NCBI RefSeq assembly: GCF_003610555.1
Contig: NZ_RAPQ01000008.1
Span: 1 to 64,000 of the forward strand
Origin: Marinifilum flexuosum
GTDB lineage: Bacteria; Bacteroidota; Bacteroidia; Bacteroidales; Marinifilaceae
DNA: 64,000 nucleotides
Reading direction: 5' to 3'
Shown here: one piece after another, positions 3,040 through 64,000 of the stretch
Position numbering within the stretch: position 1 is the first letter of the stretch
Layout of the letters: each line of letters begins with the position of its first letter
The notes under the pieces: model-generated
What the model saw: the letters and a program-made list of their open reading frames with translations, nothing else
Told to the model about the DNA's origin: nothing
The model's database searches: none
Position numbers and translations under genes: made by a program

Positions 3040-3888
3040 ATGAAACAACTATTACTTACCACAATTTTAATCTGTCTTATAAGCTTTATTGGTAAATCAC
3101 AGGAACATCTGCCTACTGCAAATGATTATTCTGCATTTGTAAAAACCAAAACACTAATTGTTTTAGATGATAATCCAATGAGTGAGTACAACTTTAGGAT
3201 AAAAGATGTTATCAAAAATAATTGGACCATTACTGAATATGGATTCATTTCGAACAAAGAGTTTGAGAAAAAACGTTTCAACCCTAAGTATTCATTTATT
3301 ATTAATAGCATCGTTACTTTTAATAAGGATAAAACCAAAGCCAGATACAACTTTCTAAGTCTGGTAATGGGCGGTAAGGAAAAAAGAATTGCCAACATGC
3401 CTGATTTATGCTCAGTTCCCTTATCGTACAAACATGTACACGAAGATGTTTATTCGTACAAACTGCCTTGTTTTATCAGGTTCATGCAAAATCATGTGAA
3501 ATTGGTCAGTAAAAATCCTGAAATTATATCGGCCAACGTATTAAAATACTATAATAAAAATGCCTCCTTGCTTCAGGGCAAAACTCTTTATCTTATTAAA
3601 GTGGAATTACAAAAAGAGGTAAATAGTTTGGCAAAAATCCGTAAGGTTTATCCAGGCAAGGTGAAAATTGTAACTAAAGAAGAGGTTGAAAAGGCAATTA
3701 ATTGTAAAAAAGAGAACATAGTGTTCCTGCACAAGGTGGGACCTGAAAGCTCAAAAACAAAAGCAAGATGTTTTAAGATTTTGGTTGGTGCCAGTGATTC
3801 AGATTTTTATTATTTTGACTATCACATGATTAAAAAGAAACAAAGCGATTCATTTTTAGAAAAAGATTTTAAACGAATAGCCCGATAA
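3040..3888 (+). CDS. Exported protein of unknown function
   Basis: The 282-residue product starts with a signal peptide (MKQLLLTTILICLISFIGKSQ) and no lipobox cysteine, so it is probably periplasmic or outer-membrane associated. The mature part is rich in Lys and Tyr, with alternating hydrophobic residues suggesting beta structure, and has three scattered cysteines. I do not recognise a family. The sirtuin gene begins 10 bp after its stop, so the two are probably cotranscribed, although an exported protein and a cytoplasmic sirtuin have no obvious shared pathway. Confidence 0.8.
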   Translation: MKQLLLTTILICLISFIGKSQEHLPTANDYSAFVKTKTLIVLDDNPMSEYNFRIKDVIKNNWTITEYGFISNKEFEKKRFNPKYSFIINSIVTFNKDKTKARYNFLSLVMGGKEKRIANMPDLCSVPLSYKHVHEDVYSYKLPCFIRFMQNHVKLVSKNPEIISANVLKYYNKNASLLQGKTLYLIKVELQKEVNSLAKIRKVYPGKVKIVTKEEVEKAINCKKENIVFLHKVGPESSKTKARCFKILVGASDSDFYYFDYHMIKKKQSDSFLEKDFKRIAR

Positions 3889-3898
3889 ATCAATACTC

Positions 3899-4585
3899 AT
3901 GAAAAAACTAGTTGTATTAAGCGGTGCAGGAATGAGTGCCGAAAGTGGCATCCGAACTTTTCGCGATATGGGAGGCTTGTGGAAAGAATACGATGTAATG
4001 GAAGTTGCCAGTCCTACCGCATGGAATAACAATCCCAATTTGGTTCATCAGTTTTACAATGAAAGAAGAAAGCAATTGTTTGAATGTGCCCCAAACCAAG
4101 GCCATCATCTCATAAAAAAGCTGGAAGAACATTTCGATGTTCACATTGTAACTCAAAATGTAGATGACCTGCATGAAAGAGCTGGTAGTTCAAAAATTTT
4201 GCATCTGCATGGCGAATTGAAAAAAGCTCGCAGTACAGTAGATTCGAGTCTGGTTTATGAACTTGACAATTGGGAACTTGGATTAGAGGATAAATGTGAG
4301 AAAGGATCACCACTTCGTCCGCACATTGTGTGGTTTGGCGAAAGTGTTCCAGCCATTTCTGAAGCTGCAGAAATAGTTTCCCAAGCTGATATCTTATTAA
4401 TAATAGGAACTTCCTTAAATGTTTACCCTGCAGCTGGCTTAATTGATTATGCACCTGACAATACTCCAGTTTATATTATCGATCCAAATCAACCTGCCGT
4501 TCACACCAATCACAACATTACATTTATAACAGAAGCAGCGAGTGTAGGAATGAAAAAACTTTTCGAAACTCTCGAACTCAAGTAA
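3899..4585 (+). CDS. SIR2-family NAD-dependent protein deacylase without zinc site
   Basis: Sirtuins remove acyl groups from lysines using NAD+. The Rossmann motif GAGMSAESGI (9-18), TQNVDDLHERAG (85-96) and catalytic H104 in HLHGEL are present, as are the later GTSLNVYPAA and ID-N motifs. The sequence FYNERR supplies Y53 and R56, the Tyr-x-x-Arg pair that in SIRT5/CobB-type enzymes recognises succinyl or malonyl groups, so desuccinylase activity is likely. The four zinc-ligand cysteines of most sirtuins are absent: after HLHGEL only one cysteine remains (DKCEKGS). At 228 residues it is a compact form. A strong terminator follows. Confidence 0.92.
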   Translation: MKKLVVLSGAGMSAESGIRTFRDMGGLWKEYDVMEVASPTAWNNNPNLVHQFYNERRKQLFECAPNQGHHLIKKLEEHFDVHIVTQNVDDLHERAGSSKILHLHGELKKARSTVDSSLVYELDNWELGLEDKCEKGSPLRPHIVWFGESVPAISEAAEIVSQADILLIIGTSLNVYPAAGLIDYAPDNTPVYIIDPNQPAVHTNHNITFITEAASVGMKKLFETLELK

Positions 4586-4612
4586 GCTGAACACCTTCCT
4601 TATATAAAAACA

Positions 4613-4639
4613 AAAGCCGGAATATTGAATTCCGGCTTT
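4613..4639. terminator. Bidirectional terminator between sirtuin and phosphate permease genes
   Basis: An 11-bp perfect stem (AAAGCCGGAAT and its complement) with a 5-nt loop is flanked by A and T runs. It serves the converging genes ending at 4585 and 4662. Confidence 0.85.
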
Positions 4640-4661
4640 CTTATATTATTAATGATTTAGA

Positions 4662-6962
4662 TTAGTCATCTATAGAGTCTTCTTCAATCATTGAATCAAC
4701 TTCTTCTCCATTAAAACCAGAGAAGTCTCTTGAAGCTTTCAGTAGATTTCCAGCATGTAAAGTAAGGTTCTTGGTTTCATTCAGGATCCCCAGGTAAAGA
4801 ACTGAATTTCTAGTACCAACTTTTTCAGCTTTAATTCTCTTGATTTGCTCTTTTCTAAATTTGCGAATTGATTTCAGCAAATCTTTTTGCTTTTCAAGAG
4901 CTTTTTCAATTTCAGCAGCTTCGTAATTACTGTCTTTCAACAAACGGTTAATTGTTCTGAAGAAATCATCAAGTTTAGTTTGAATGATATTTAATTCATT
5001 CACCTGTTCCTTAATCAAAGTCTTGTGATTGTTATCAACGTAATCGAAAGCTGGACCAGCAATAAAGCTCATTGAATGTGCAATCTCACGCAAGTAATCA
5101 ATCAACTGAACGTAAAAAGGACCTGTTGCGATACTATCTTCACTCAATTTCTTCATCATGGCAGGAACCTGATCTTTCATCTGTTTCGCTTCCTTATCCA
5201 ACTTGCCTGCTTTCTTATTGCATTCTTTTAATTTAGAACGCTCTTCGAAAGCCAACCCGTTAATGATTTTGCCATATAGATTAGGAATCTTAACTGTGAT
5301 ACCTGAAACTGCGAAAGTCAACTGTTCAAAGATTCCACCTTTTATAATAATTGTATCATCTTCTTCTGTTGGTTGCTCTTTAGCCTGTGATTTCTTCTTG
5401 TGGAAGATATGAGATCGAACCACAAAAATTACAGCAAGAGTCAACAATCCAAAAATAGCAAATCCACCTAGCCAGTTGATTAAATTAGCAAAGATAAAGG
5501 CTGCGGTAAATGCACTAAATGCTGTAAAGAACCATCCACCAATTACTGTAAGTACACCAGTAATACGATATACTGCTGAATCTCTTCCCCAAGCTCTATC
5601 AGCTAATGAAGTACCCATTGCAACCATAAATGTCACATAAGTTGTAGACAATGGTAACTTTAGGGATGTACCTATCGAAATTAGAATACTTGCAACAGTA
5701 AGGTTTACCGATGCACGAATCATATCAAATGCTGGCTTATCCTTTGGATCTACTCCAGGAATAACTACTTCCTCAGGTTTATTAAATCTATTGGCAATAC
5801 CTTGCTGAACAGTTGCAGGCATCATGCGCTTAAAGTTGCTATTCGCTGATAATGAACGACGAACCAATAAACGTGCAAAGAACGATGATCCAAACTTTTC
5901 GTCTCCCTCATTTTGGCTACTTAAGCCAATCTCCGTCTCGGTAACTGTTCTTGCTTTTTTAGATAACCATAGTGTTACGGTCATAATAATACCAGCAATT
6001 ATCAACAGGTATGTTTCTGTCTGAACCTTCTGACTCAAAATACCCATTGTCATTCCATAAGGATCAGTACCTGGATTAGCTGCAAAAGCCTGGAAAGATT
6101 TGAAACCAGCCAATGGCACCCCAATAAAGTTTACAAGGTCGTTACCAGCAAAAGCCATTGCCAATGCAAATGTACCCACCAAAACAATCACCTTAAGAAT
6201 GTTTAAACGAACAAACCAAACCAAAGCTTGTAATAATATAGTCCAACCAACAAATGAAACCGCTATAATGGTTAAGGTGTTAGACTTAATCCAAGCCAAA
6301 GTATCTTTGGTAATAAAAGAGGATCCTTTAGCACCTTTAATCAGGATAAAGTAAGTAATTGCAGTAATTGCAATACCCCCAAAAATGGCACCAAAATACT
6401 TGAATGTTTTCTCGTATCTATACGTGAAAACCAATCGTGTTACCCATTGTACCAATGAACCGGATAAAAAGGCAATAACAACACTCAACAAAATACCGGT
6501 TATAATGGCCAGTGCTTTGGCTGAATTAATGTAAGTTCCTAAATCAAGCAGAGTTTGATCGGCAGAGTTCATGATTTTAACTATGGCCACAGCAACAGCA
6601 GCTCCAAGCAACTCAAATACAATCGATACTGTAGTTGAAGTTGGAAGACCTACGGTATTGTAAAAATCCAACAGAATAATATCTGTTAGCATAACCGCAA
6701 TAAAAATGATCATGATTTCTGCAAAGTAGAATTGGTCGGGGTGAAAAATCCCCTTACGAGCTACCTCCATCATACCACTCGAGAAAGTTGCTCCAACCAA
6801 AATCCCAAGGCTGGCAATAATCATGATGGCCCAACGTGGGGCAGCCTTAGAACCAAATGCAGAGTTTAGGAAATTAACGGCGTCATTACTCACGCCCACG
6901 ATTAGATCGCTAATGGCAAGTGCAAATAGCACAACCACAATTAGTAAATAAAAGTTCTCCAT
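4662..6962 (-). CDS. PiT-family inorganic phosphate transporter with PhoU-like cytoplasmic tail
   Basis: Inner-membrane phosphate permease driven by the cation gradient. Two copies of the PiT signature are visible: GVSNDAVNFLNSA near the N-terminus with TVGLPTSTTVSIVFE, and a second half containing NDLVNFIGVPLAG and LPLSTTYVTFMVAMGTS. About ten membrane segments are followed by roughly 230 charged, helical residues resembling a PhoU-like regulatory domain. The start MENFYLL is preferred over an upstream ATG because it directly precedes the first membrane helix. It is about 766 residues, much longer than a minimal PiT because of the tail. Its upstream region holds a TTAACA-like direct repeat (7037-7054), so PhoB control is possible. 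Confidence 0.92.
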   Translation of the reverse strand: MENFYLLIVVVLFALAISDLIVGVSNDAVNFLNSAFGSKAAPRWAIMIIASLGILVGATFSSGMMEVARKGIFHPDQFYFAEIMIIFIAVMLTDIILLDFYNTVGLPTSTTVSIVFELLGAAVAVAIVKIMNSADQTLLDLGTYINSAKALAIITGILLSVVIAFLSGSLVQWVTRLVFTYRYEKTFKYFGAIFGGIAITAITYFILIKGAKGSSFITKDTLAWIKSNTLTIIAVSFVGWTILLQALVWFVRLNILKVIVLVGTFALAMAFAGNDLVNFIGVPLAGFKSFQAFAANPGTDPYGMTMGILSQKVQTETYLLIIAGIIMTVTLWLSKKARTVTETEIGLSSQNEGDEKFGSSFFARLLVRRSLSANSNFKRMMPATVQQGIANRFNKPEEVVIPGVDPKDKPAFDMIRASVNLTVASILISIGTSLKLPLSTTYVTFMVAMGTSLADRAWGRDSAVYRITGVLTVIGGWFFTAFSAFTAAFIFANLINWLGGFAIFGLLTLAVIFVVRSHIFHKKKSQAKEQPTEEDDTIIIKGGIFEQLTFAVSGITVKIPNLYGKIINGLAFEERSKLKECNKKAGKLDKEAKQMKDQVPAMMKKLSEDSIATGPFYVQLIDYLREIAHSMSFIAGPAFDYVDNNHKTLIKEQVNELNIIQTKLDDFFRTINRLLKDSNYEAAEIEKALEKQKDLLKSIRKFRKEQIKRIKAEKVGTRNSVLYLGILNETKNLTLHAGNLLKASRDFSGFNGEEVDSMIEEDSIDD

Positions 6963-39332: not shown

Positions 39333-42300
39333 TTATCTTTTTTTATAACCGATAACAGCATTCGAAACCGAACGAGGTTCAGGTGGTAATGAAAAAATAT
39401 TTCGTTCGTAATTCGAATTGTATGGCGATATATTTAAAGTTTCTCCATTTACAACCAATGTTGAACTTCCGCCTGGATCGAATCCCATGGCTTTAACAAT
39501 ATTGTACTTCTCCAAAATTTCAGCCATATCGAAATGTGTAGCTCCCACCGATTCTCGAATTCTACCATTAATGGTTAGTACATATAAATTACCTGTCTTA
39601 TCAATTCCCACAGCAATTTTTGGACCTCTCATATCTGTAAAGTCCAATCGGGCGGCTTGTGTTTTTATAGAATTCTGTGTCTTCCATCCTTCCACTTTCA
39701 TATCGATACATTGCTTTCCTTTATTTAGTAACATCGGACCTGCTTCAACAGCATGCAAAACATTCTCTAAACCGTTCAGCGTAATTTCAAGTTTGTCACC
39801 AACATTTGCAATTGCCGATTTCATCACCGATAATGGAATGCATAAAGTTAATCCAACAGGAATTTGTTTTACTTCCTTGGAATCGTAAATGATTTCTTTT
39901 ACTGTATTTCCTGCCAATCGATATACAATACAATCTTTCGCTGGAATCATTTCTTCTTCGTACATTAAATCGAAGAAAGCGCATTTGTCTTCTTTAAATT
40001 CATTGTAATTTTTGGCATCAAATTGTAATTCGACATCATTTGTTTTTATTCTAATGCCCCTTTTACAATTTACTCTTTCAATATCTAGCTTACCAGATTT
40101 GTAGATTAACAATGCAGGCTTATTAAAGAGAGGCCCACTTAAGCACTTTCCGTTTGAGATTAATAATCCTAAAGGAGAACCAATATAGGATTCTGGTAAG
40201 CCCAATTTACCAACCAACTCTGGATTTAATATATAACCACCATTCCATGCAATTTTTGCTTGACACTTGTTAATTTCTTCAAACTCTTCTACAAAATTTG
40301 TTACCGTTTTTGTCTGCAATGAACTAACTGTGGTAAACTCCCAATTTTCATTATCATCTTGCACATTTGCCTTCGCTAAAATTCCATTCCATGGATATCC
40401 ATCATCATAAATTCCTGTTACATTCGAGTATTCTACATCTGCTTTTTCCTGATCGGATTTTGATATATTTTCCAATATCAATTTTAATGGAGAACCCTTG
40501 GTTTGGGCATCTTTTTGTATCAATTGTAGCAATTCTTGCTCGCCTAACTTTTCACTTAATTCTTTAAATAAGTCTGAATGCAATAGTTCCGAAAAATCCT
40601 TAGCCGTTTGCACGGGAGTTGGGTAAGCTAAGGTTGAACGAACTCCTGCAGGAACAAATTGAATGTATCCTGTATTGTTAGGAATTCCCATAATATTTGC
40701 TGCCAATTCGGTTGTTACTTTACCAATATGAAATCTGTCCAGATTCAATATGTCTGTCATAAAAGCAGCATTTCTTCTGTTCGATATTAAGTAACCATTC
40801 TTATCCATTACTTTTCGTAATGTCAATAAAGCCTTCTCTCCCATTTGTGGAATATGAATTCCTACAGTTAAAGAATCAATCGACACTACTTGTAGAATTT
40901 TTTTATCGTACAAAAGTTTTAATTCCTGGTCGGAACCACACTCAATAAATTCACGAATATCGCTCGCGGTTGTCCAATTGGTTAAAGCTTCTTCTGGAGC
41001 AAATACATATACCTTTTCAATGTTTTTACCCTTTAACTTTTCCTTGCAAATCGGATCATGCATATCCATTCCCAATCGACTTTTAATGGAATTCAGAACA
41101 AAATATTCAAGCTCATATTTCACATACTTCCCGGGAAAATATGCCAATGGAATATTCTGTTTCATCTTCTTGAAAAGGAAACTTCTGTCATCAATAGAAA
41201 TCATCGAAGAAGAGGTTAATTGAGAAAGAGCTAAATTTTTATCTATAAAAAACCTTGACGAACCACTCACCTTTCTTCCAATACCAGGAGGCAAATGTTT
41301 CGATTTAAGAAGATTTACCATACCCGATAATTCCTGATGTGTAAAATCATGAAACAGATAATAGTTTTTATTTCGATGTCGATAGGTAAAAGAATGGTCG
41401 TGTCTTATTGAAATCTCACCATTGCGAACAGCAAAAAGATTATCAATGGAGTTGTAAAAATTATGCACCTGTTCCAAACCTAAATTATCTGAATCCGGAT
41501 GGTCTTCAATCTGTCGCTTTGCAAAATAAAAAGTGCCTCCCCTAATTTCTTGCTCTTCCATTCTAAACGAACTTGGATCAATTAACGACTTTAAATAAAG
41601 CATAAAACCTAATCTTCCATAGCCTGGTAAATAGTGTCTGTTTTCAGTATTAACAAGAGCTTTAACATCATCATTGGTAAACCTTACTTTTGATTTGTAA
41701 AACTTGTAAAGCTCTCCAACTTCGTTTAAGTTTTTCTGATTAGACTGTAATTGTAAATAAAGTTTTTTTACGATTTCTTCTATACCCGAATTTAAAGAAT
41801 TGATGCTATATCTATTATCAATTACTTTTTTATTGTGACTCACACTTCGGTGATGAATGTGTGGAAAAAACACCTTCTCTATGGTTTCATTCACATGCGA
41901 ATCAAGTATGCTTCTGCCAGTAAACTCAATAACTTTTAATCTTTCCTTCTCAGGCAGATGTTCACCAATAACTTCTGCATAAACATTTTCTGGTTGGTAT
42001 CTTCTGCAGAATATAGGTACACCAGCTGCAGCAGCTTCTAAAATAGGTAAACCTCTCCCCTCTGTTTTCGATGGCAATAATATCAAAGAAGAAATACTGT
42101 ATAATTCAGGAATACCAATAGGATGTTCAAAATGATTCTTAAATCTTTTTTTATCCATCTCACTAAACAAAAATCCCAAGTATACTCTTTTTCTAAATTC
42201 CGGATCAATACGTTCTAAAAGTTCTTGAAATCGTGTTAACAATTTTTGAAAATAAGGATATTGCCCTAAAGGAATTGGTCCGGTAATTAATATGGTAATT

Positions 42301-43493
42301 TTTAAATCTTCCGATTCTCTGATTTTTTCTTTTAAACTCTCAACTTGTAACATTTTACCAACAAGATCGAATCCCAATTCAATCCTTTTTCTTGAAATCA
42401 CCCTGGTTGGTTGCAAAAAAATAATATTCTCAGACAAGAATTTATGCATCGCCTTTGTTTTGTATCCAATGTAAATGGGTTCGGGATTTTTCTTGCTCAC
42501 CAATTTGTATTCCAATACATCTTTTACCGAATAGCTAACCAATGCTTTTTTGTGATACCGGCTTAGCATCTTCTCCATCTGGAAAAGAGATTCTATTCTT
42601 CTTCTCTTATCAATATTGTTGTATTCAGTAGAATCAACAGCCGTTCCAATTTCAGTAACATTTGCAGGATTGTGTCCTTTATAATGTATCAGGTATTCAC
42701 TTTGCTTTTTGTTAATATTTACATTCATCCACGAACGCGATTCCCATGGATACAACACCTCCAGTTGTGAAAAAAATTCACCAAGATGTGAGTTCAGGAA
42801 GAAGAAATCACGAGGCCCTTTTTTCAATCCTTTTACCTCTTTGTTAATTTCAGAATTCCCTCCTTCCCAATAAAAATCATGATTATTATTAATTACAGGA
42901 ATACCCATGTATTCAGAAACCAAAACTGTAGCCAAAGCAGCGGCTACATTTCCCGGATTTGAACACAAGTTTATAAGATATAACAAGCCAATATTATTAT
43001 TATCTATATACGTAGCTAGCTTTTCACAAATGGAAAGAGTTTGATCCCAAAACTTTACAATCAAAGCATTGTATTCCTTACTTCCACGTTCCAATTTGGT
43101 AAAGTAGAAATCTTTGTATAGTGTCCAATCATCAAATCCCTGCATTTCTTCAATGGCAAAGGTTTTGGTTCTTGAATCCATAATCTTAGAAGCCTCTGGA
43201 TAAAATTTACCAGCGATATAATGTATTTTAATATCATCGCCAAAATTGTACCGGAATGTTTTTGCATATTTCTCTACCTCTATACTAACACCATCAATAG
43301 AATAATAAAAGGTAGAAAAAGCAATCCCTTTTTTATTAATATTAGATTTAAACCTTTCAAAACTTTGATTAAACTCAACTACCGGAATTGATTTGTTTTC
43401 CTTAAAACGATCAATAAACAATCCTAAATCAAACCATGTTTTAATTTTTTCAGAACACAACATCTCCATCAATTCAGTAGCTTTCATAGTCAT
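39333..43493 (-). CDS. Large glycosyltransferase fused to a phosphodiester-glycosidase (NAGPA-like) domain
   Basis: The 1386-residue cytoplasmic-looking protein (no signal peptide) has three parts. Residues 1-600 form a GT-B glycosyltransferase of the GT4 type (NPGNVAAALA, NNNHDFYWEGG, YSISSLILLPSKTEGRGLPILEAAAAGVP). Residues 600-1060 are a linker domain I do not recognise. Residues 1070-1386 match phosphodiester glycosidases: AWNGGYILNP, SPLGLLISNGK, then GFDPGGSSTLVVNGE and RSVSNAVIGY. The first half would build a sugar phosphate or glycan; the last domain cleaves sugar-1-phosphodiesters in known homologues. Such a fusion is unusual. The start could also be the second ATG, two codons in. 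Confidence 0.82.
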   Translation of the reverse strand: MTMKATELMEMLCSEKIKTWFDLGLFIDRFKENKSIPVVEFNQSFERFKSNINKKGIAFSTFYYSIDGVSIEVEKYAKTFRYNFGDDIKIHYIAGKFYPEASKIMDSRTKTFAIEEMQGFDDWTLYKDFYFTKLERGSKEYNALIVKFWDQTLSICEKLATYIDNNNIGLLYLINLCSNPGNVAAALATVLVSEYMGIPVINNNHDFYWEGGNSEINKEVKGLKKGPRDFFFLNSHLGEFFSQLEVLYPWESRSWMNVNINKKQSEYLIHYKGHNPANVTEIGTAVDSTEYNNIDKRRRIESLFQMEKMLSRYHKKALVSYSVKDVLEYKLVSKKNPEPIYIGYKTKAMHKFLSENIIFLQPTRVISRKRIELGFDLVGKMLQVESLKEKIRESEDLKITILITGPIPLGQYPYFQKLLTRFQELLERIDPEFRKRVYLGFLFSEMDKKRFKNHFEHPIGIPELYSISSLILLPSKTEGRGLPILEAAAAGVPIFCRRYQPENVYAEVIGEHLPEKERLKVIEFTGRSILDSHVNETIEKVFFPHIHHRSVSHNKKVIDNRYSINSLNSGIEEIVKKLYLQLQSNQKNLNEVGELYKFYKSKVRFTNDDVKALVNTENRHYLPGYGRLGFMLYLKSLIDPSSFRMEEQEIRGGTFYFAKRQIEDHPDSDNLGLEQVHNFYNSIDNLFAVRNGEISIRHDHSFTYRHRNKNYYLFHDFTHQELSGMVNLLKSKHLPPGIGRKVSGSSRFFIDKNLALSQLTSSSMISIDDRSFLFKKMKQNIPLAYFPGKYVKYELEYFVLNSIKSRLGMDMHDPICKEKLKGKNIEKVYVFAPEEALTNWTTASDIREFIECGSDQELKLLYDKKILQVVSIDSLTVGIHIPQMGEKALLTLRKVMDKNGYLISNRRNAAFMTDILNLDRFHIGKVTTELAANIMGIPNNTGYIQFVPAGVRSTLAYPTPVQTAKDFSELLHSDLFKELSEKLGEQELLQLIQKDAQTKGSPLKLILENISKSDQEKADVEYSNVTGIYDDGYPWNGILAKANVQDDNENWEFTTVSSLQTKTVTNFVEEFEEINKCQAKIAWNGGYILNPELVGKLGLPESYIGSPLGLLISNGKCLSGPLFNKPALLIYKSGKLDIERVNCKRGIRIKTNDVELQFDAKNYNEFKEDKCAFFDLMYEEEMIPAKDCIVYRLAGNTVKEIIYDSKEVKQIPVGLTLCIPLSVMKSAIANVGDKLEITLNGLENVLHAVEAGPMLLNKGKQCIDMKVEGWKTQNSIKTQAARLDFTDMRGPKIAVGIDKTGNLYVLTINGRIRESVGATHFDMAEILEKYNIVKAMGFDPGGSSTLVVNGETLNISPYNSNYERNIFSLPPEPRSVSNAVIGYKKR

Positions 43494-47746: not shown

Positions 47747-48610
47747 CTAAATAGCAATATTCTTTCGAGTATTAGACGAAGAATATATTTCGTTAATATT
47801 TTGTTTCAATATAGCTTCAATTTTTTCTTTGAGTACAAGATTTGATTCTGAGAATTTAAATGGAATGGTAAAGTAGAATATTGAACCATTTCCCAAGTTT
47901 GAATCGATGTATAACTTGCCTCCAAGAAATTCAACCAATTCTTTGCTGATACTTAAGCCCAAACCAGCACCTGAATGTTCTCTGGTATATGAATTATCAA
48001 CTTGGGTAAATTTCTTAAATATTTTTGCTTGTTGCTGATCACTTATTCCAGGTCCAGTATCTTTCACATAGAAAAGAATATTGTGTCTGTCCTGAATTGC
48101 ACAACCAAAATCAATTTCTCCTGAGCTTGTAAATTTCAATGCATTATCAAGGAGATAACATAGTACTTTGGTTAGTTTTTTCTGATCAGTGAATATTTTA
48201 TTATCACGTAAATCTTCGGTATAATTTAAAACCAAATTTTTACCGCTCATATTAATCTTTTGCCCGTAGGCCGAGTACAATGTAACCAGTAAATCATGTA
48301 CTTCAATTTCTGATTCGTTGTATTCTAATGAACCGCTTTCTAATTGCGATAGTTCTAGGATTCTATTGAATAGATCCAGTAATTCTTTACTGCTCGATGA
48401 CAGTATTTTTGTAAATTCATTTCGATCCTCTTTTGATAAAGTATCATCACGAAGAAGTTCTGATGCTCCTACAATCGCATTCATCGGCGTTCGAATTTCA
48501 TGCGACATATTGGCTAAAAATGCATCCTTCAGCTTCTCGGTCTTTTCGAGCTGAGCTTGCGCTTCTGCTAATTGTCGTTGCAATTCTTTATATGTAGGAC
48601 GTTTCTCCAT
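47747..48610 (-). CDS. Soluble histidine kinase
   Basis: The 287-residue kinase has no membrane segment or sensor domain. A short coiled coil (about 5-30) leads into FLANMSHEIRTPMNAIVG (His at about 37) and an ATP-binding domain (LCYLLDNALKFTSSGEIDF, DTGPGISDQQQAKIFKKFTQ, GAGLGLSISKELV). It is a cytoplasmic hybrid-type core without receiver. It lies 115 bp downstream of the last Gly-Gly peptide gene on the same strand, so read-through transcription is possible; a receiver gene at 45846 is 1.5 kb away. Its signal is not visible. Confidence 0.88.
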   Translation of the reverse strand: MEKRPTYKELQRQLAEAQAQLEKTEKLKDAFLANMSHEIRTPMNAIVGASELLRDDTLSKEDRNEFTKILSSSSKELLDLFNRILELSQLESGSLEYNESEIEVHDLLVTLYSAYGQKINMSGKNLVLNYTEDLRDNKIFTDQKKLTKVLCYLLDNALKFTSSGEIDFGCAIQDRHNILFYVKDTGPGISDQQQAKIFKKFTQVDNSYTREHSGAGLGLSISKELVEFLGGKLYIDSNLGNGSIFYFTIPFKFSESNLVLKEKIEAILKQNINEIYSSSNTRKNIAI

Positions 48611-48725: not shown

Positions 48726-48818
48726 TTAGACTAGAATGTCTTCATTTATCGACTTATCTTGGTAACCACCAAGTGTATTGTCTTGCTCCTGAATTGTTAA
48801 TTCTTCAAAGGTATTCAT
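48726..48818 (-). CDS. Gly-Gly leader peptide, copy 5 (diverged leader, Cys to Ser core)
   Basis: A 30-residue peptide: leader MNTFEELTIQEQDNTLGG (18 residues, only M, F4, E5, L7 and GG shared with the other four copies), then core YQDKSINEDILV. The core matches the others at 11 of 12 positions; the cysteine is serine. Since leader and spacer have diverged but the core has not, the core is under selection. It is the copy closest to the histidine kinase gene. An imperfect hairpin at about 48684-48698 lies downstream. Confidence 0.8.
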   Translation of the reverse strand: MNTFEELTIQEQDNTLGGYQDKSINEDILV

Positions 48819-48878
48819 ATTGAATAAGATAAAAGAGTAGTAAATATAAAAAATACGATCTACTTATTCAAATTTTTC

Positions 48879-48971
48879 TTATACCAGGATATCTTCGTTA
48901 ATACATTTGTCTTGGTATCCACCTTTAATGTTTTTTAAATCTTCAGTGTTTAATACTTCAAAATTTTTCAT
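48879..48971 (-). CDS. Gly-Gly leader peptide, copy 4
   Basis: The encoded leader and core are the same as in copies 1-3. Against copy 1 five codons differ (GGA for GGT, GAT for GAC, ATC for ATT, CTG for CTT, GTA for GTT), all synonymous and mostly in the last five codons. Fixation of only silent changes shows that the 30-residue product is translated and constrained. See the copy 1 entry for the peptide. Confidence 0.85.
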   Translation of the reverse strand: MKNFEVLNTEDLKNIKGGYQDKCINEDILV

Positions 48972-49046
48972 TGCTATTTTTATTTGGTCGTTAATAACTA
49001 GGAAAATACTTTTTGGAAAATTTGGATTACTATGGGTCGAGGTTGA

Positions 49047-49139
49047 TTAAACAAGAATGTCTTCGTTAATACATTTGTCTTGGTAACCACCTTTAATGTT
49101 TTTTAGATCTTCGGTGTTTAATACTTCAAAATTTTTCAT
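49047..49139 (-). CDS. Gly-Gly leader peptide, copy 3
   Basis: It encodes the same leader and core as copy 1. Its coding sequence shares with copy 2 two silent changes relative to copy 1 (Thr ACC, Leu CTA). A longer in-frame reading beginning with an ATG at 49259 would start inside copy 2 in a different frame and is not used, because only the 30-codon unit is conserved. Confidence 0.85.
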   Translation of the reverse strand: MKNFEVLNTEDLKNIKGGYQDKCINEDILV

Positions 49140-49215
49140 TGCTATTTTTATTTGGTCGTTAATAACTAGGAAAATACTTTTTTGGAAAATTTGGATTACT
49201 ATGGGTCGAGGTTGA

Positions 49216-49308
49216 TTAAACAAGAATGTCTTCGTTAATACATTTGTCTTGGTAACCACCTTTAATGTTTTTTAGATCTTCGGTGTTTAATACTTCAAAA
49301 TTTTTCAT
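49216..49308 (-). CDS. Gly-Gly leader peptide, copy 2
   Basis: Identical peptide to copies 1, 3 and 4, with the same two silent changes as copy 3 (ACC, CTA). The spacer after it is identical to that after copy 1. Start codon is the ATG that begins MKNFEV; an upstream in-frame ATG at 49428 lies within copy 1. Confidence 0.85.
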   Translation of the reverse strand: MKNFEVLNTEDLKNIKGGYQDKCINEDILV

Positions 49309-49384
49309 TGCTATTTTTATTTGGTCGTTAATAACTAGGAAAATACTTTTTTGGAAAATTTGGATTACTATGGGTCGAGGTTGA

Positions 49385-49477
49385 TTAAACAAGAATGTCT
49401 TCGTTAATACATTTGTCTTGGTAACCACCTTTAATGTTTTTTAAATCTTCAGTGTTTAATACTTCAAAATTTTTCAT
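49385..49477 (-). CDS. Gly-Gly leader peptide, copy 1 (first of five)
   Basis: A 30-residue secreted-peptide precursor. The leader MKNFEVLNTEDLKNIKGG (18 residues) has the hydrophobic and acidic pattern (F4, L7, L12, I15) and terminal Gly-Gly cut by C39-peptidase ABC exporters. The core is YQDKCINEDILV, 12 residues, acidic, with one cysteine; no Ser/Thr-rich lanthionine substrate is seen, and no modifying enzyme is nearby. A possible role is a signal or narrow-spectrum bacteriocin. It is transcribed divergently from the CHAT protease gene and 43 bp after the ECF-type element at 49521-49554. The exporter at 63623 could process it. Confidence 0.85.
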   Translation of the reverse strand: MKNFEVLNTEDLKNIKGGYQDKCINEDILV

Positions 49478-49671: not shown

Positions 49672-52500
49672 GTGAAAAAAAATTTAAAAAAAATTCTACT
49701 TTTTTCTCTTTTACTTGTTTTGCTGGCAGGCGAAAACAAGAATTTAGCATTTACATCAATTTTTTCTGATGATCAGAAAACTGAAAATTTATCTCCAGAT
49801 TCTGTTCTTGTTAGGCAGGTTAATCGGGCACTAGAATTTTACAAATCTCGAGAATATAATTATGCCGTACAGTCTTTTGAAAATGCTGTACAAACAATAG
49901 ATAATGGGGGTGTTATCGATAAAAATATAGTTTATCGTACTTATGTCAATTTTGGTGTTATTAAAGGAAGGCTAGGAAAGAGAAGTGATGCATTAAAATA
50001 TTATAGCTTAGCTGAAAAATTTATTGTCGATAATTATGGATATGAAGATTCTAAGCTTGTTCCAATCTATGTAAATACAGGAAATATATATAATGATTTA
50101 CATGATTTATATAAAGCTCAAAGTTATTATGAAAAAGCACTATCAATCATAGGTGATAATAAGTCACGTTATCTTTCACAAATTAACAATAATCTTGGGA
50201 ATAACTATTATAATAGGCATGAGTATAATAAGGCATTAGATTTTTTTAAAAAATCATTATTGATAAAAAAGGATATTAATGATAAAAATATATCATCTAC
50301 TCTAAATGGGATTGCTAATTGTTATAAACAACTGAAAAAATATAAGGAAGCTGACTTATACTATCTGCAAAGTATTGATAATATTAAAAGTTTTGGTGAT
50401 GAAAATCATTACAGATTAGGTACTCTATATCTAAATTACGGAATTCTTCAAAATGAAATTAAAAATAAGAATAGTGTTTTAAAATATTTTGATTTAGCCT
50501 ATAATGTTTACTTGAGTAACTACGGAGCTAAACATCCAGATGTTGCCAATTGCTTAATGAATATGGGAGACTTTTATGGAGAACAAAAGCAAAATATTAC
50601 TTCTCTAAAGTATTACCAAAAAGCCATTATTTCTGAATTGGATAACTTTTCGGATAGTACAATTTATGCTAATCCCGATCTAAACGAAATTGAACCGCAA
50701 ATATTAATACTTAGTATTTTAAAAGGTAAGGCGAAGGGATTTTCAAATTTATACAAGGAAAATGAGAAAGTTAGTGACCTTGATTTTAGCTTGGATACCT
50801 ATGATTTATGCCTAAATATTATTGATAAGATTAGAATTGGTTACCAGGATGAGCAAAGTAAGTTTGCTTTATCGCAGAACGAAAAAGATACCTATACCTT
50901 AGCAATTGAAATTGCGGTGCAATTGTATGAACTTACAAAGGATAAAAGCTATAAGGAGAGAGCTTTTAAATATGCAGAGCGATCGAAAGCAGCAAGTTTG
51001 ATGTCTTCTTTGAATGATGTAAATGCCAAAAATGTAGGTGGAATTCCTGTTGAATTGCAGGAGGAGGAGCAACAATTGAGAAAAGATATTGCAAGCTATC
51101 GCGAAAAAATATACGAAGAACGTAAAAGGTTGAATTCAGATCGAAAAAAGATTTCGGAATGGCAAGGGAAATTGTTCGAATTGAATGAGAGTTATAATCA
51201 AATGGTACTTCGTTTCGAAAAAGATTATCCTAAGTACTACGATTTGAAATATAGGAATAATACTATTGAGATGTCGGAGCTTCAGTCCAGACTATCTTCC
51301 GATGAAATACTAATTGAATACTCTATTTCCGACTCCTCACTTTTTACTTTTATTGTCACTTCAGATTCATTTGAAATAACAAAACAAGAAATCAATTCAG
51401 ATAGTTTAAATCACCATATCGAGGAGGTTAGGAATGCTTTAAAAACGAATGATTTTGCAGAAAATAGTTCCGAATTTTATCAGCGCTATACAAAATCAGC
51501 TTTTAATTTATACCAAACTTTTATTGGTCCGCATAGTAATGTAATTCAAAATAAGAAACTTGTTATTATACCAGATGGCAAGATGGCTTATGTGCCTTTT
51601 GGGGTTTTAATTAAGCAAGAAGCTAATCCTGATCGTATGAATTATCGGGACTTAGATTATCTAATTAAATCAAATACAATAACATACCAGAATTCTGCAA
51701 CAATTGGTTTTTCAATTGAACCTGCCGGATTTAGTTTTACAACCAGTAAATCGGTATTGGCGTTTGCACCATCATACAATGGAATTGATGATTCAATTTT
51801 ATATACCGAACGAGCATATAGAGATAAGTTGTATCCTTTGCCATATACCAAAGAGGAGGTTAATAATATTTCGCACGTAATGGAAGGTGATTTGTACTTG
51901 GATGATTTTGCCACCGAACAAAATTTTAAAGATCATGCAAGTGATTATGATGTTCTTCACCTGGCCATGCATACAATTATTGATGATGAGAACCCTATGT
52001 ATTCTAAACTGGTTTTTACTCAAACAAGTGATACGGTTCAGGACGGATTATTGAATACGCACGAAATTTATAACATGAATTTTAACGCCAGAATGGTAGT
52101 TTTAAGTGCTTGTAATACAGGAGATGGTAAGCTTTTAAAGGGTGAAGGTGTTATGAGTTTGGCCAGAGGATTCTTTTATGCTGGTTGTCCTAGTATTATT
52201 ATGACCTTATGGACGGTTGAAGATCAAACCGGATCTAATTTAATGACCAACTTTTATGGCTATCTTTCGCAAGGATTCGAGAAGGATGAAGCTCTTCGCC
52301 AGGCTAAGTTAAAATATCTGGAAACTGCGGATCCTCTCAAGTCACATCCTTATTTTTGGTCAGGATATGTTACCATGGGTGATGTTGAACCATTATATGA
52401 TTTCGATATAATGAATAACTTGGTTTATTTTGGATTTGGTGGTGCTGTTTTGTTGTTACTAATCGTTTTTAGGAGAAGAATTAGAAGAAGAGTAGCATAA
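49672..52500 (+). CDS. Membrane-anchored TPR-CHAT caspase-like protease
   Basis: About 942 residues. N-terminal signal/anchor (KKILLFSLLLVLLAG), then TPR repeats (about 40-370; repeated A-x-x-YY-x-K-A pattern, e.g. AQSYYEKALSIIG, ALDFFKKSLLIK), a coiled linker (about 440-530), a CHAT domain (about 620-890) and a C-terminal membrane helix with basic tail (RRRIRRRVA). Catalytic His is in VLHLAMHTIID and Cys in VVLSACNTGDG, with GEGVMSLARGFFYAGCPSIIMTLW following as in caspase-HetF-type proteases. No ATG start exists: GTG at 49672 or TTG at 49666. TPR and CHAT would face the periplasm. Divergent from the peptide array, convergent with the sigma operon. Confidence 0.9.
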   Translation: MKKNLKKILLFSLLLVLLAGENKNLAFTSIFSDDQKTENLSPDSVLVRQVNRALEFYKSREYNYAVQSFENAVQTIDNGGVIDKNIVYRTYVNFGVIKGRLGKRSDALKYYSLAEKFIVDNYGYEDSKLVPIYVNTGNIYNDLHDLYKAQSYYEKALSIIGDNKSRYLSQINNNLGNNYYNRHEYNKALDFFKKSLLIKKDINDKNISSTLNGIANCYKQLKKYKEADLYYLQSIDNIKSFGDENHYRLGTLYLNYGILQNEIKNKNSVLKYFDLAYNVYLSNYGAKHPDVANCLMNMGDFYGEQKQNITSLKYYQKAIISELDNFSDSTIYANPDLNEIEPQILILSILKGKAKGFSNLYKENEKVSDLDFSLDTYDLCLNIIDKIRIGYQDEQSKFALSQNEKDTYTLAIEIAVQLYELTKDKSYKERAFKYAERSKAASLMSSLNDVNAKNVGGIPVELQEEEQQLRKDIASYREKIYEERKRLNSDRKKISEWQGKLFELNESYNQMVLRFEKDYPKYYDLKYRNNTIEMSELQSRLSSDEILIEYSISDSSLFTFIVTSDSFEITKQEINSDSLNHHIEEVRNALKTNDFAENSSEFYQRYTKSAFNLYQTFIGPHSNVIQNKKLVIIPDGKMAYVPFGVLIKQEANPDRMNYRDLDYLIKSNTITYQNSATIGFSIEPAGFSFTTSKSVLAFAPSYNGIDDSILYTERAYRDKLYPLPYTKEEVNNISHVMEGDLYLDDFATEQNFKDHASDYDVLHLAMHTIIDDENPMYSKLVFTQTSDTVQDGLLNTHEIYNMNFNARMVVLSACNTGDGKLLKGEGVMSLARGFFYAGCPSIIMTLWTVEDQTGSNLMTNFYGYLSQGFEKDEALRQAKLKYLETADPLKSHPYFWSGYVTMGDVEPLYDFDIMNNLVYFGFGGAVLLLLIVFRRRIRRRVA

Positions 52501-52898: not shown

Positions 52899-53645
52899 CT
52901 ATTCCAGCTTACTAAGAATTTCCTGAGCTTTTGCTTTATAGAAACTATTTCCTCGAGCAATTGTATTAAACTGCTTAATGGCTTTATCTCTTTCATTAGT
53001 CATTAAGTAGCAAAAACCTATGTACCATTCGGATTGTTCTATAAACAAGTTGTTTTTATGCTTTATTACTCTAGTAAAATTCTTATTTGCTTTATGATAT
53101 TCATTAATTTCTAAATTAGAAATACCTGAATAAAAGTTACTCGTAATATTTGTACTATCCTTGTCTAATATTTGCCTAAATAGGGTTAAAGCCGTGTGAT
53201 AATCCCTAGCTTCGTAACTCTTTAATGCTGTAACAAGCATATTATCTATATTAGCATCCGCCGAACGAGTATTTACTATCGCATATGGTTTGTAGTAATT
53301 ACTGTATACTTTTTCATTGGAATAGGAGTTCTTGTTATTTACAAGAAACATTAAACTACCTAAACCAATAAACAATGCTAATGAAGCGGCAACAATATTC
53401 CATTTGGTTAGATATTTAAATTTGCGCTTCTCTTGTTCTTTAGGAGGTATTTCTATTGCATCTAGCTTGCTTCTTAGATCCATAATGTCATTTTCCATTA
53501 TAGCCTCGTCAACCTCTTGGTGTAAATCCAGCTCCATTTGTAAGTCTGGATCATCCAGAAGGTCCTTTTCAAATTCCTTTAGCTGGTCGTCAGATAAACC
53601 ACCATCTAGGAAATCTTCAATACGGTCAAAATTCATATCACTCAT
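52899..53645 (-). CDS. Transmembrane anti-sigma-like protein with periplasmic TPR
   Basis: About 248 residues from the chosen start MSDMNFDRIEDF. An acidic, helical cytoplasmic N-terminus (1-65; DFLDGGLSDDQLKEFEKDLLDDPDL) resembles anti-sigma domains without zinc. It is followed by basic KRKFKYLTKW, a membrane helix (83-102, NIVAASLALFIGLGSLMFLV) and periplasmic TPRs (about 135-248; LKSYEARDYHTALTLFRQIL, ANKNFTRVIKHKN, DKAIKQF). ATG overlaps the sigma stop codon by 8 bp (ATGAGTGA), so the two are translationally coupled. It is the likely membrane inhibitor of the sigma factor. Confidence 0.82.
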   Translation of the reverse strand: MSDMNFDRIEDFLDGGLSDDQLKEFEKDLLDDPDLQMELDLHQEVDEAIMENDIMDLRSKLDAIEIPPKEQEKRKFKYLTKWNIVAASLALFIGLGSLMFLVNNKNSYSNEKVYSNYYKPYAIVNTRSADANIDNMLVTALKSYEARDYHTALTLFRQILDKDSTNITSNFYSGISNLEINEYHKANKNFTRVIKHKNNLFIEQSEWYIGFCYLMTNERDKAIKQFNTIARGNSFYKAKAQEILSKLE

Positions 53646-54204
53646 CATATACTTCTTTAAATTCATTATCACTTTTAATACTCTCTATCAGCATTTGTTT
53701 ACACTGATGTTTCCTTTTCTTTGCATACTTCTCACTCTTATAGCCCATTATATCGGCAATTTCTTTTAGTGAGATTTTGTCTAAAGCAAGTTGAAGAACT
53801 TTCTTACAATCCGGGCCAAGTTTTTGAAAGTGTTTCTGATATAGTCGGTACCTCTCAGTTTGGTCATAAGTCTCAGAAGCTTCGTCTAATCGATTATCCA
53901 GAACTCCTTCCGAATTGATTTCATTGCTGTTCTTTTTCTTTTCAAGTTGCTTTAACCACAAAAGTCTGCAAATGGAATAGATGTATGTTTTAAAGTTACA
54001 ACTAAGAACCAACGGTTCTTTTTTCATTTTACGATAGATTACAATAATAGCTTCTTGGAAAAGATCGCGTGCATCCTCCTCGTTCCCATTATTGTTCTCG
54101 ATAAAATTGCGAATACTCGGAAAGAACTTTTTGTAGATGTAATTTAATACATCATTATTGCTCATACTTATTCCCTCAAGTATCGCTTCAGTAGTGTAAT
54201 CCAT
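53638..54204 (-). CDS. ECF-type RNA polymerase sigma factor
   Basis: The 188-residue sigma factor has region 2 (about 20-90; YIYKKFFPSIRNFI, EEDARDLFQEAIIVIYRK, FKTYIYSICRLLWLKQLEKK) and region 4 (about 125-180; LGPDCKKVLQLALDKISLKEIADIMGYKSEKYAKKRKHQCKQMLIESI). There is no region 1 or 3, as in extracytoplasmic-function sigmas. Its ATG is 9 bp after an ECF-type element also present before the peptide array, which implies autoregulation. Region 4 is followed by an Asp/Glu-rich tail. Confidence 0.9.
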   Translation of the reverse strand: MDYTTEAILEGISMSNNDVLNYIYKKFFPSIRNFIENNNGNEEDARDLFQEAIIVIYRKMKKEPLVLSCNFKTYIYSICRLLWLKQLEKKKNSNEINSEGVLDNRLDEASETYDQTERYRLYQKHFQKLGPDCKKVLQLALDKISLKEIADIMGYKSEKYAKKRKHQCKQMLIESIKSDNEFKEVYDE

Positions 54205-54677: not shown

Positions 54678-54678
54678 G

Positions 54679-54753
54679 TGGGCGATATAAGATTCGAACT
54701 TATGACCCCTTGGGTGTAAACCAAGTGCTCTGAACCAACTGAGCTAATCGCCC
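54679..54753 (-). tRNA. tRNA-Val (anticodon TAC)
   Basis: A 75-nt cloverleaf: acceptor GGGCGAT/ATCGCCC, D-arm with GCTCAGTTGGT, anticodon stem CTTGG/CCAAG with loop TTTACAC, and T-arm with TTCGAAT. CCA is not encoded. The T-stem reads ATAAG/CTTAT, while the other copy has ATAGG/CCTAT: a compensating base-pair change. Confidence 0.95.
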
Positions 54754-54780
54754 CTGTTATTGGGAAATTTTGCTTTTTTG

Positions 54781-54855
54781 TGGGCGATATAGGATTCGAA
54801 CCTATGACCCCTTGGGTGTAAACCAAGTGCTCTGAACCAACTGAGCTAATCGCCC
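54781..54855 (-). tRNA. tRNA-Val (anticodon TAC), second copy
   Basis: Nearly identical to the copy at 54679 (27 bp away) with the same anticodon loop TTTACAC. Differences are confined to the T-stem pair and preserve pairing. The two are probably one transcript read on the minus strand. Confidence 0.95.
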
Positions 54856-63622: not shown

Positions 63623-64000
63623 TTGAAAAAACGATTTCCACACTTTCGACAGTTGGATGCCATGGATTGTGGCCCAACCTGTTTGCGCATGATTGCCAAG
63701 CACTATGGCAAAAATTACACTTTACAATCATTACGCGATAAATCGCACATTACCCGCGAAGGCGTTTCGATGTTGGGTATTGCCGATGCAGCTGAAAGTA
63801 TTGGAATGCGTAGTATGGGCGTTCGTATTTCTTTCGATCAGTTGGCGAAGGAAGCTCCACTACCTGCAGTTTGTCACTGGGGACAAAACCACTTTGTGGT
63901 GGTGCATAAGGTTGAGGAGAAGCGCAACAAAACCATTGTGCATGTTGCTGATCCTGGTTCGGGCTTGCTAAAATTTACCAAAGAGGAGTTCATTAAACAA
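63623..64000 (+). CDS. C39-peptidase ABC exporter, partial (N-terminal peptidase domain)
   Basis: Continues past the right edge; 126 residues visible. The only possible start in the frame is TTG at 63623 (a stop is at 63608). The C39 domain has oxyanion Q10, catalytic C16 in MDCGPTC, H90 in QNHFVVV and D110 in VADPGSG, spaced as in known bacteriocin exporters. The transporter's membrane and ATPase parts lie beyond the window. This enzyme type removes Gly-Gly leaders while exporting the core peptide, so the array at 48726-49477 is a natural substrate. Confidence 0.88.
   Translation, partial: MKKRFPHFRQLDAMDCGPTCLRMIAKHYGKNYTLQSLRDKSHITREGVSMLGIADAAESIGMRSMGVRISFDQLAKEAPLPAVCHWGQNHFVVVHKVEEKRNKTIVHVADPGSGLLKFTKEEFIKQ

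Follow-up and report, generated by a model that had tools for sequence, protein, structure and literature searches.

The window analysed here, a stretch of 64,000 nucleotides of Marinifilum flexuosum (contig NZ_RAPQ01000008.1, positions 1 to 64,000), carries five 30-codon open reading frames (ORFs) on its minus strand at 48726-49477, each translating to a peptide of 30 aa (Table 1). An earlier note, made from the letters of the window, had described five such frames without a strand, with a period near 169 bp and with four copies encoding the same leader and core. All five frames are present, the proteins of copies 1 to 4 are identical and these copies are spaced by 168-169 nt (TRF: 3.5 copies of 169 nt, 98%). 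Their core peptide has 12 residues and 1.45 kDa. The note further stated that the copies differ by up to five codons, all synonymous. The differences are indeed synonymous, but five is the number between copies 4 and 1, and the maximum is seven (copy 4 versus copies 2 and 3). Copies 2 and 3 show 100% identity across the full 169 nt, spacer included, which indicates a recent duplication and makes this pair uninformative on selection. The leader of copy 5 differs from that of copies 1-4 at 11 of 18 residues, and 11 of the 12 core residues are shared; the single core change is C to S, yet the cores are separated by ~6.5 synonymous changes. A chance origin of the array is excluded because arrays or contig-end pieces of arrays occur in 20 other genomes of the family (Marinifilum, Labilibaculum and Ancylomarina).

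Table 1. Genes at the locus, in window coordinates (positions of the peptide genes include the stop codon)
Feature	Position	Strand	Description
Histidine kinase	47747..48610	-	HisKA and HATPase_c only (Pfam), no hydrophobic segment; directly after the array
Terminal copy 5	48726..48818	-	Leader MNTFEELTIQEQDNTLGG, core YQDKSINEDILV; leader different, core near-identical
Peptide gene copy 4	48879..48971	-	Same protein; 5-7 synonymous codon changes
Peptide gene copy 3	49047..49139	-	Identical to copy 2 across 169 nt
Peptide gene copy 2	49216..49308	-	Protein identical to copy 1
Peptide gene copy 1	49385..49477	-	Leader MKNFEVLNTEDLKNIKGG, core YQDKCINEDILV
TPR-CHAT protein	49672..52500	+	Divergent from the array; start GTG 49672 (or TTG 49666)
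Anti-sigma-like protein	52899..53672	-	Short N-terminal part, one hydrophobic segment at about residues 91-113, C-terminal TPRs
ECF-type sigma factor	53638..54204	-	Sigma70_r2, 26.1 bits (cut-off 24)
C39 peptidase-ABC exporter	63623..64000, on to 65830 beyond the window	+	Only C39 match of the genome
HlyD-like adaptor	66330-67628, beyond the window		Follows the C39-ABC gene

By their Gly-Gly motif, their residues at -4, -7 and -12 and the C39 exporter in the genome, the array peptides are assigned to the Gly-Gly leader type. G17 and G18 are invariant in all 54 peptides of alignment A1, and the leaders are hydrophobic at -4, -7 and -12 in 42, 52 and 54 of them, respectively, the exceptions being T at -4 in 12 peptides and Q at -7 in two. 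According to the accessible part of PMC6363468, the C39 protease requires hydrophobic leader residues at exactly these three positions. They are also all hydrophobic in 35 of 35 peptides from outside the family, for which the search pattern already demanded a hydrophobic residue near -4. The leader scores above the cut-off of the generic bacteriocin-signal model TIGR01847 (19.2 versus 15.7), and the window peptide stays under the cut-offs of the Pfam families ComC (18.3 versus 20.4 bits) and Bacteriocin_IIc (24.2 versus 27.1). None of ten tested peptides passes a cut-off of any known peptide family in NCBIfam, the generic leader model excepted.

The C39 match of the window's genome (G000) spans 63635-64006, at the start of a 735-aa C39-ABC protein whose gene begins 14 kb from the array, at the right edge of the window. 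All 21 array genomes have a C39 match versus 13 of 35 other family genomes, a contrast that is inflated by shared descent. The match lies on the contig of the array in 18 of the 21, at ~12-47 kb, and on other contigs in G003, G004 and G046. Since the exporter is 14 kb off and outside the operon, it may serve other cargo. In G002, the C39 match has two additional Gly-Gly peptides encoded within 2 kb of it (L062, 6037-6363), whose cores contain DGDG (MKNFEVLNSLMLSCIKGG... and MKDLLKDAITNLELVTVKGG...). One has a leader like that of the array, and both are perhaps other cargo of the same exporter.

Array peptides were detected in 21 of the 56 family genomes (best E ≤ 1e-10) by searching 194 genomes with the 30-aa peptide and the 56 with an HMM; three further family genomes gave weak matches, chiefly to the leader. 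When the peptide HMM was run over 393 genomes drawn from the order, the window's genome alone matched at E ≤ 1e-4, which suggests that the core type is limited to the family. The assemblies contain between one and six copies per genome, and the spacing of the copies varies between species. The order of divergent CHAT gene, array and kinase gene is whole on one contig in 14 of the 21 array genomes; in the other seven (G001, G012, G023, G044, G049, G039 and G004) the array is cut by contig ends and the pieces fit the same order. The outer flanks vary among genome groups, while the unit of CHAT, array and kinase stays whole. The Marinifilum genome G004 has another TPR-CHAT gene, shorter at 702 aa (L055, 3100-5375), which is divergent from a single Gly-Gly peptide gene (MKNFEILSGMEMQTVKGGDNDKNISEDGTVIEIQ) at ~60 nt and is a further instance of the pairing. 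In the Ancylomarina genome G020, two tandem TPR-CHAT genes adjoin one peptide pair (L044, 8386-14550). In L049 of G033 (3533-4302 and 4525-6881), the CHAT and anti-sigma genes are each read in two frames, either through gene decay or through assembly error, and all five peptide copies are intact.

The cores of all 54 peptides of A1 carry a net charge of -2 to -5 and have 12-15 residues; 53 of the 54 are array peptides, and each of these has valine as its last residue. The earlier note had named random core changes among related genomes as something that would refute its reading. Cores do change between species, but the changes are not random with respect to charge, final valine or matching within genomes. 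The one cysteine that the note ascribed to the core is found in the main copies of the window and is not constant, the same core position being C, M or S within Marinifilum.

Selection on the core was assessed in the 11 genomes that have both main and terminal copies, using the first main copy of each. Their leaders are of two kinds, main and terminal, and each kind is similar from genome to genome, so both kinds seem to predate the species. Summed over the 11 genomes, main and terminal copies of the same genome differ at 19 residues in the cores and at 106 in the leaders, with a pooled pN/pS of 0.10 for cores and 0.59 for leaders. The former value bears out the purifying selection on the product that had been proposed from the synonymous codon changes, and a core pS of 0.78 makes recent gene conversion improbable as the cause of the core likeness. 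A terminal core is closer to the main core of its own genome than to those of other genomes (permutation p 0.017 for the five genomes with 30-aa peptides and 0.0028 for the six with 33-aa peptides), as a common binding partner would impose.

The divergent TPR-CHAT protease, the downstream kinase, the C39 exporter at 63623 and the pairing beyond the family all add to what the earlier note contained. The TPR-CHAT protein starts with a short hydrophobic stretch that looks signal-like by eye; in hydropathy, all 19-residue windows of this stretch stay below 1.6. Seven TPRs follow, then a helical linker, the CHAT domain and, at the C-terminus, a hydrophobic helix. Pfam scores are 196.3 bits for CHAT (cut-off 24) and 88 bits for TPR_12 (cut-off 30.1), and the nearest named relative is the protein of M. 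breve (94%). The AlphaFold2 model (912 residues) has a mean pLDDT of 83.4 and a pTM of 0.78. All 53 of 53 proteins compared share a His and a Cys of the CHAT domain at model positions 737 and 784, which we take to be the catalytic pair from motif and position. The window protein is assigned on these grounds as a TPR-CHAT protease with its presumed His and Cys intact and a predicted activity. In a Foldseek search, the first seven matches were TPR-CHAT chains of Craspase complexes or like entries, followed by separase, with Csx29 as the nearest fold; the best E value was 1.8e-14, and the query TM of 0.31-0.42 implies that the domains are set differently from those in the Craspase chains.

One position in helix A of the TPRs is occupied by Asn in 256 of 370 cells, versus 391 of 5362 elsewhere in helix A; it is the commonest residue there in all seven TPRs and the majority residue in five. 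In other TPR proteins, an Asn ladder of this sort binds the backbone of a peptide. The nearest solved TPRs by sequence are engineered TPRs and then kinesin light chain, a reader of W- and Y-acidic cargo peptides; NprR and a Rap-type phosphatase rank lower. The Pfam scan of the TPR-CHAT protein detected no HTH or phosphatase output domain.

An orthologue of the kinase (≥ 50% identity) is present in 20 of the 56 family genomes, all of which bear the array; the array genome without it is G039, in which the array lies at a contig end. Kinase identity is 97% between G000 and G001 and 98% between G000 and G002, though the cores of these genomes differ. The sigma and anti-sigma genes adjoin the CHAT gene in 18 of the 20 family genomes where that CHAT gene was fetched, and are not adjacent to it in G012 and G023. 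The putative anti-sigma role is drawn from the adjacent sigma gene. Elsewhere in the window, two tandem tRNA-Val (tac) genes lie at 54678-54855, just past the sigma factor gene, and a 1386-aa ORF at 39333-43493 resembles what we take to be a glycosyltransferase joined to a phosphodiester-glycosidase-like part. The search for defence systems with PADLOC returned weak TPR- and kinase-type matches only.

The pairing of a Gly-Gly peptide with a TPR-CHAT gene is conserved beyond the family. A contig scan with the CHAT alignment confirmed 223 relatives of the CHAT gene, and the best 79 of these 223 loci were looked at. Five of them, with a match that starts inside the protein, were left out (L084, L114, L125, L137 and L143). 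The 57 loci from outside the family were used, of which 12 with under 500 nt upstream were not counted, leaving 45. A Gly-Gly ORF of 25-75 aa with an acidic core was found within 1 kb upstream of the CHAT gene in 39 of these 45 loci, versus 1 of 220 other gene starts in the same loci, all of them 2 kb or more away from the start of the CHAT gene. The zone searched at CHAT genes extended 300 nt beyond the start codon, unlike the control zones, and all counted ORFs begin upstream. No such ORF lies within 1 kb upstream of the CHAT gene in L102, L132, L136 and L139. L135 and L144 (Prolixibacter) were missed because the cores of their Gly-Gly peptides are neutral and were removed by the acidity filter, which also sets in part the acidity of the outside cores that were counted. 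Most outside peptide genes are divergent from the CHAT gene, as in the window, and those of L099, L121, L129 and L151 run with it.

An HMM of the family leaders was also run, with no acidity filter, against 4216 small ORFs of the 57 outside loci. Its best 22 matches, in 17 loci (E ≤ 0.041), are all on the minus strand and within 3 kb upstream of the CHAT gene. The outside cores differ by clade (e.g. DDDLWPP, RDLDLIVEDFD, DEDILLPDEE and TEDEDVWM) and the peptides are constrained, with a pooled pN/pS of 0.25-0.47 (five groups, 23 sequences). With labels that are loose, being based on BLASTP to the proteins of the window at 1e-4, a sigma gene was found within 3 kb downstream of the CHAT gene in 34 of 40 outside loci, and a kinase gene upstream of it on the strand of the peptides in 17 of 33.

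Repeated cassettes precede the CHAT gene at two loci: L142 holds two copies of the peptide and anti-sigma-like gene, and L144 holds two peptide pairs. Several Cys-rich Gly-Gly peptides of a different, bacteriocin-like kind (e.g. MKELKNLRGAKTLSKNEQRNIKGG...) are encoded ~4.3-4.5 kb upstream of the CHAT gene in L093 and ~5.3-5.8 kb upstream in L107.

CHAT genes occur in 67 of 148 sampled genomes of the phylum. For a wider sample, one CHAT gene each, mostly high in the ranking by score, was taken from 40 of the 66 other matching genomes, in other orders and classes, and 39 were examined. No leader-like case was found among these 39, and their three acidic Gly-Gly hits (L156, L164 and L186) were judged to be glycine-rich tracts without a leader. 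The pairing thus belongs to one Bacteroidales group of TPR-CHAT genes. Short Gly/Pro-rich ORFs without a leader lie just upstream of the CHAT gene in L156, L164, L167 and L186, all from other Bacteroidota, those of L167 and L186 being alike; they are possibly another kind of small CHAT partner.

Region-wise dS was compared for 18 genome pairs, seven of which have a CHAT-domain dS below 0.6. In all seven, dS is higher in the TPR region than in the CHAT domain. The two TPR halves of G000/G001 have a dS of 1.57 and 1.08, compared to 0.21 for CHAT and 0.06-0.39 for 13 neighbouring genes; for G044/G049 the values are 1.08 and 1.57, 0.21, and 0.01-0.34 for 14 neighbouring genes. The CHAT proteins of G033 and G039 are 52-88% identical between residues 41 and 280 and 92-100% identical past residue 360, as far as G033 reads. 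The contrast fades in wider pairs, being level in G030/G036 and reversed in G001/G002 (TPR dS 0.40-0.45 versus CHAT 0.91); in G012/G023, several neighbouring genes have a dS above 1, which gives a poor baseline. The divergence of the TPRs looks like an exchange of old alleles. G000 and M. breve share the same core and have TPR regions that are 93% identical, whereas between their CHAT domains 20-60% of the synonymous sites are different. In G001, the CHAT domain resembles that of G000 (99%) and the TPR region that of G002 (89%, versus 74% to G000); the G001 peptide copy next to the CHAT gene has the M of the core of G002, and the other assembled main copy of G001 the C of G000.

Two further ways of linking TPRs and peptide were tried and rejected. 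Core distance and TPR distance are correlated in three genome groups (Spearman 0.86, 0.75 and 0.51), but core distance tracks the CHAT domain and linker about as well (0.84-0.89, 0.65-0.77 and 0.24-0.43 for the other regions), so that coevolution by distance says nothing for the TPRs as receptor. A hypervariable groove was not found either: in the seven close pairs, TPR differences amount to 27% in helix B and 33% in loops, and to 15% in the groove-facing helix A.

We propose that the array provides the precursors of one linear, acidic 12-residue peptide, of which the C39 ABC exporter would cut the Gly-Gly leader and export the core. The exported core would be the ligand of the divergently encoded TPR-CHAT protein, which is placed in the envelope because of its signal-like N-terminus and C-terminal hydrophobic helix. 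Binding of the core along the TPR superhelix would switch the caspase-like CHAT protease, for which the neighbouring membrane anti-sigma protein is the likeliest substrate, and its cleavage would free the ECF sigma factor. The genes, the leader type, the exporter, the conserved pairing and the constraint on the core are observed results. From export through binding and protease switching to the anti-sigma target, each step is less certain than the one before. According to the accessible part of PMC10028731, Csx29 cleaves Csx30, an inhibitor of CASP-sigma, and the choice of the anti-sigma protein as substrate leans on this analogy. This mechanism gives the kinase no place, and a peptide that leaves the cell would need to re-enter the periplasm. 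We rate the chances of the whole explanation, with an exported peptide as TPR-CHAT ligand and the switched protease acting on the anti-sigma protein, at about even. More tentatively, the locus may represent a new class of secreted-peptide signalling in Bacteroidales, in which Gly-Gly peptides gate a membrane-anchored TPR-CHAT protease acting on an anti-sigma factor and in which TPR alleles and cores are exchanged together between strains, the joint exchange being drawn from four Marinifilum genomes.

Five rival explanations are less likely. In the cell that produces it, the peptide could inhibit CHAT or serve it as a pseudo-substrate or substrate, with no signalling between cells. The tight gene pairing would suit such a role, acidic tails with hydrophobic residues could fit a protease or TPR groove, and several copies would raise the dose. 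However, the C39 recognition positions are kept and would be idle in a cytosolic inhibitor; this explanation, which we find unlikely, could still hold if export reached only the periplasm. Slightly less likely again is a role against relatives, with the peptide as a short effector of the bacteriocin or microcin-like kind and the TPR-CHAT protein as its immunity or self-recognition partner. The match of the leader to TIGR01847 agrees with an effector, and core matching within genomes and raised TPR divergence also fit toxin-immunity pairs. Class II bacteriocins, however, are mostly longer and cationic, which makes acidic cores of this size unlikely candidates; moreover, the partner keeps the protease His and Cys, needless for a plain immunity protein, and outside peptides with unrelated cores have the same kind of partner.

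We consider it very improbable that the peptide is sensed by the histidine kinase rather than by the TPR-CHAT protein, along the lines of ComCDE-type pheromone operons. The kinase gene directly follows the array on the same strand, its orthologues are confined to array-bearing genomes and a kinase recurs upstream of CHAT in about half of the outside loci, but the kinase is near-constant while cores differ. With HisKA and HATPase_c only and no hydrophobic segment, it cannot sense an exported peptide directly. Still more improbable is that the cores are RiPPs, natural products that would be modified by an enzyme encoded away from this locus. The window peptide does match TIGR04149, an rSAM-modified family, but under the cut-off (15.7 versus 25), the cysteine comes and goes between copies and species, and no modifying enzyme was detected among the part of the neighbours scanned with Pfam; in line with the earlier note, there is no sign of a plain lanthipeptide. 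That the ORFs are untranslated and the repeat acts as DNA or RNA can be all but dismissed, for the near-fixed spacing in the window is set against spacing that varies between species, the synonymous pattern in and outside the family and the lack of any Rfam match at E ≤ 0.1.

If the exported peptide is indeed the ligand of the TPR-CHAT protein, a peptide-signalling route would be added to a Gram-negative phylum for which, to our knowledge, few such routes have been described. We know of no described ligand for membrane-type TPR-CHAT proteins, and the paired secreted-type peptide is a candidate that can be made as a synthetic 12-mer. The pairing points to an unrecognised peptide-and-protease signalling module, the signalling role of which we infer, and would tell annotators where small genes may hide, namely upstream of the relatives of this CHAT gene, 223 of which were counted and the best 79 loci looked at. 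In the open-licence literature, CHAT proteins paired with Gly-Gly peptides were not found among the matches listed. The parts are of known kinds and their combination appears to be new.

The array resembles the Gly-Gly pheromones of the ComC/BlpC type of Gram-positive bacteria in its leader layout, C39 exporter, short linear core and single core type per genome, and differs from them in its TPR-CHAT protease partner, five tandem copies and Gram-negative host. In contrast to ComCDE, the adjoining kinase is not membrane-bound (no hydrophobic 19-residue window). RRNPP receptors such as NprR and Rap read a short linear peptide with a TPR superhelix, but these are cytoplasmic and have an HTH or phosphatase output, whereas the window protein has a predicted protease output and a membrane anchor. 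In heterocyst-forming cyanobacteria, PatS is the small peptide of the heterocyst circuit. That circuit likewise unites a CHAT-TM-TPR protein, a C39-type exporter and a small peptide (HetF, PMC8406250; HetC, PMC10986499, in the accessible parts of both papers). Its peptide is unrelated to that of the array, it serves developmental patterning, and the same parts of these papers do not describe a gene pairing of peptide and CHAT. The Craspase system is similar in that its TPR-CHAT protease Csx29, the nearest solved fold, is encoded together with an ECF sigma factor and the inhibitor of that factor (accessible part of PMC10028731; see also PMC9729208). Csx29 works together with Cas7-11 in one complex, and target RNA gates it, whereas the window protein is of an envelope type and adjoins Gly-Gly peptide genes; if the proposed mechanism is true, it would be a cell-exterior counterpart of the RNA-gated Craspase.
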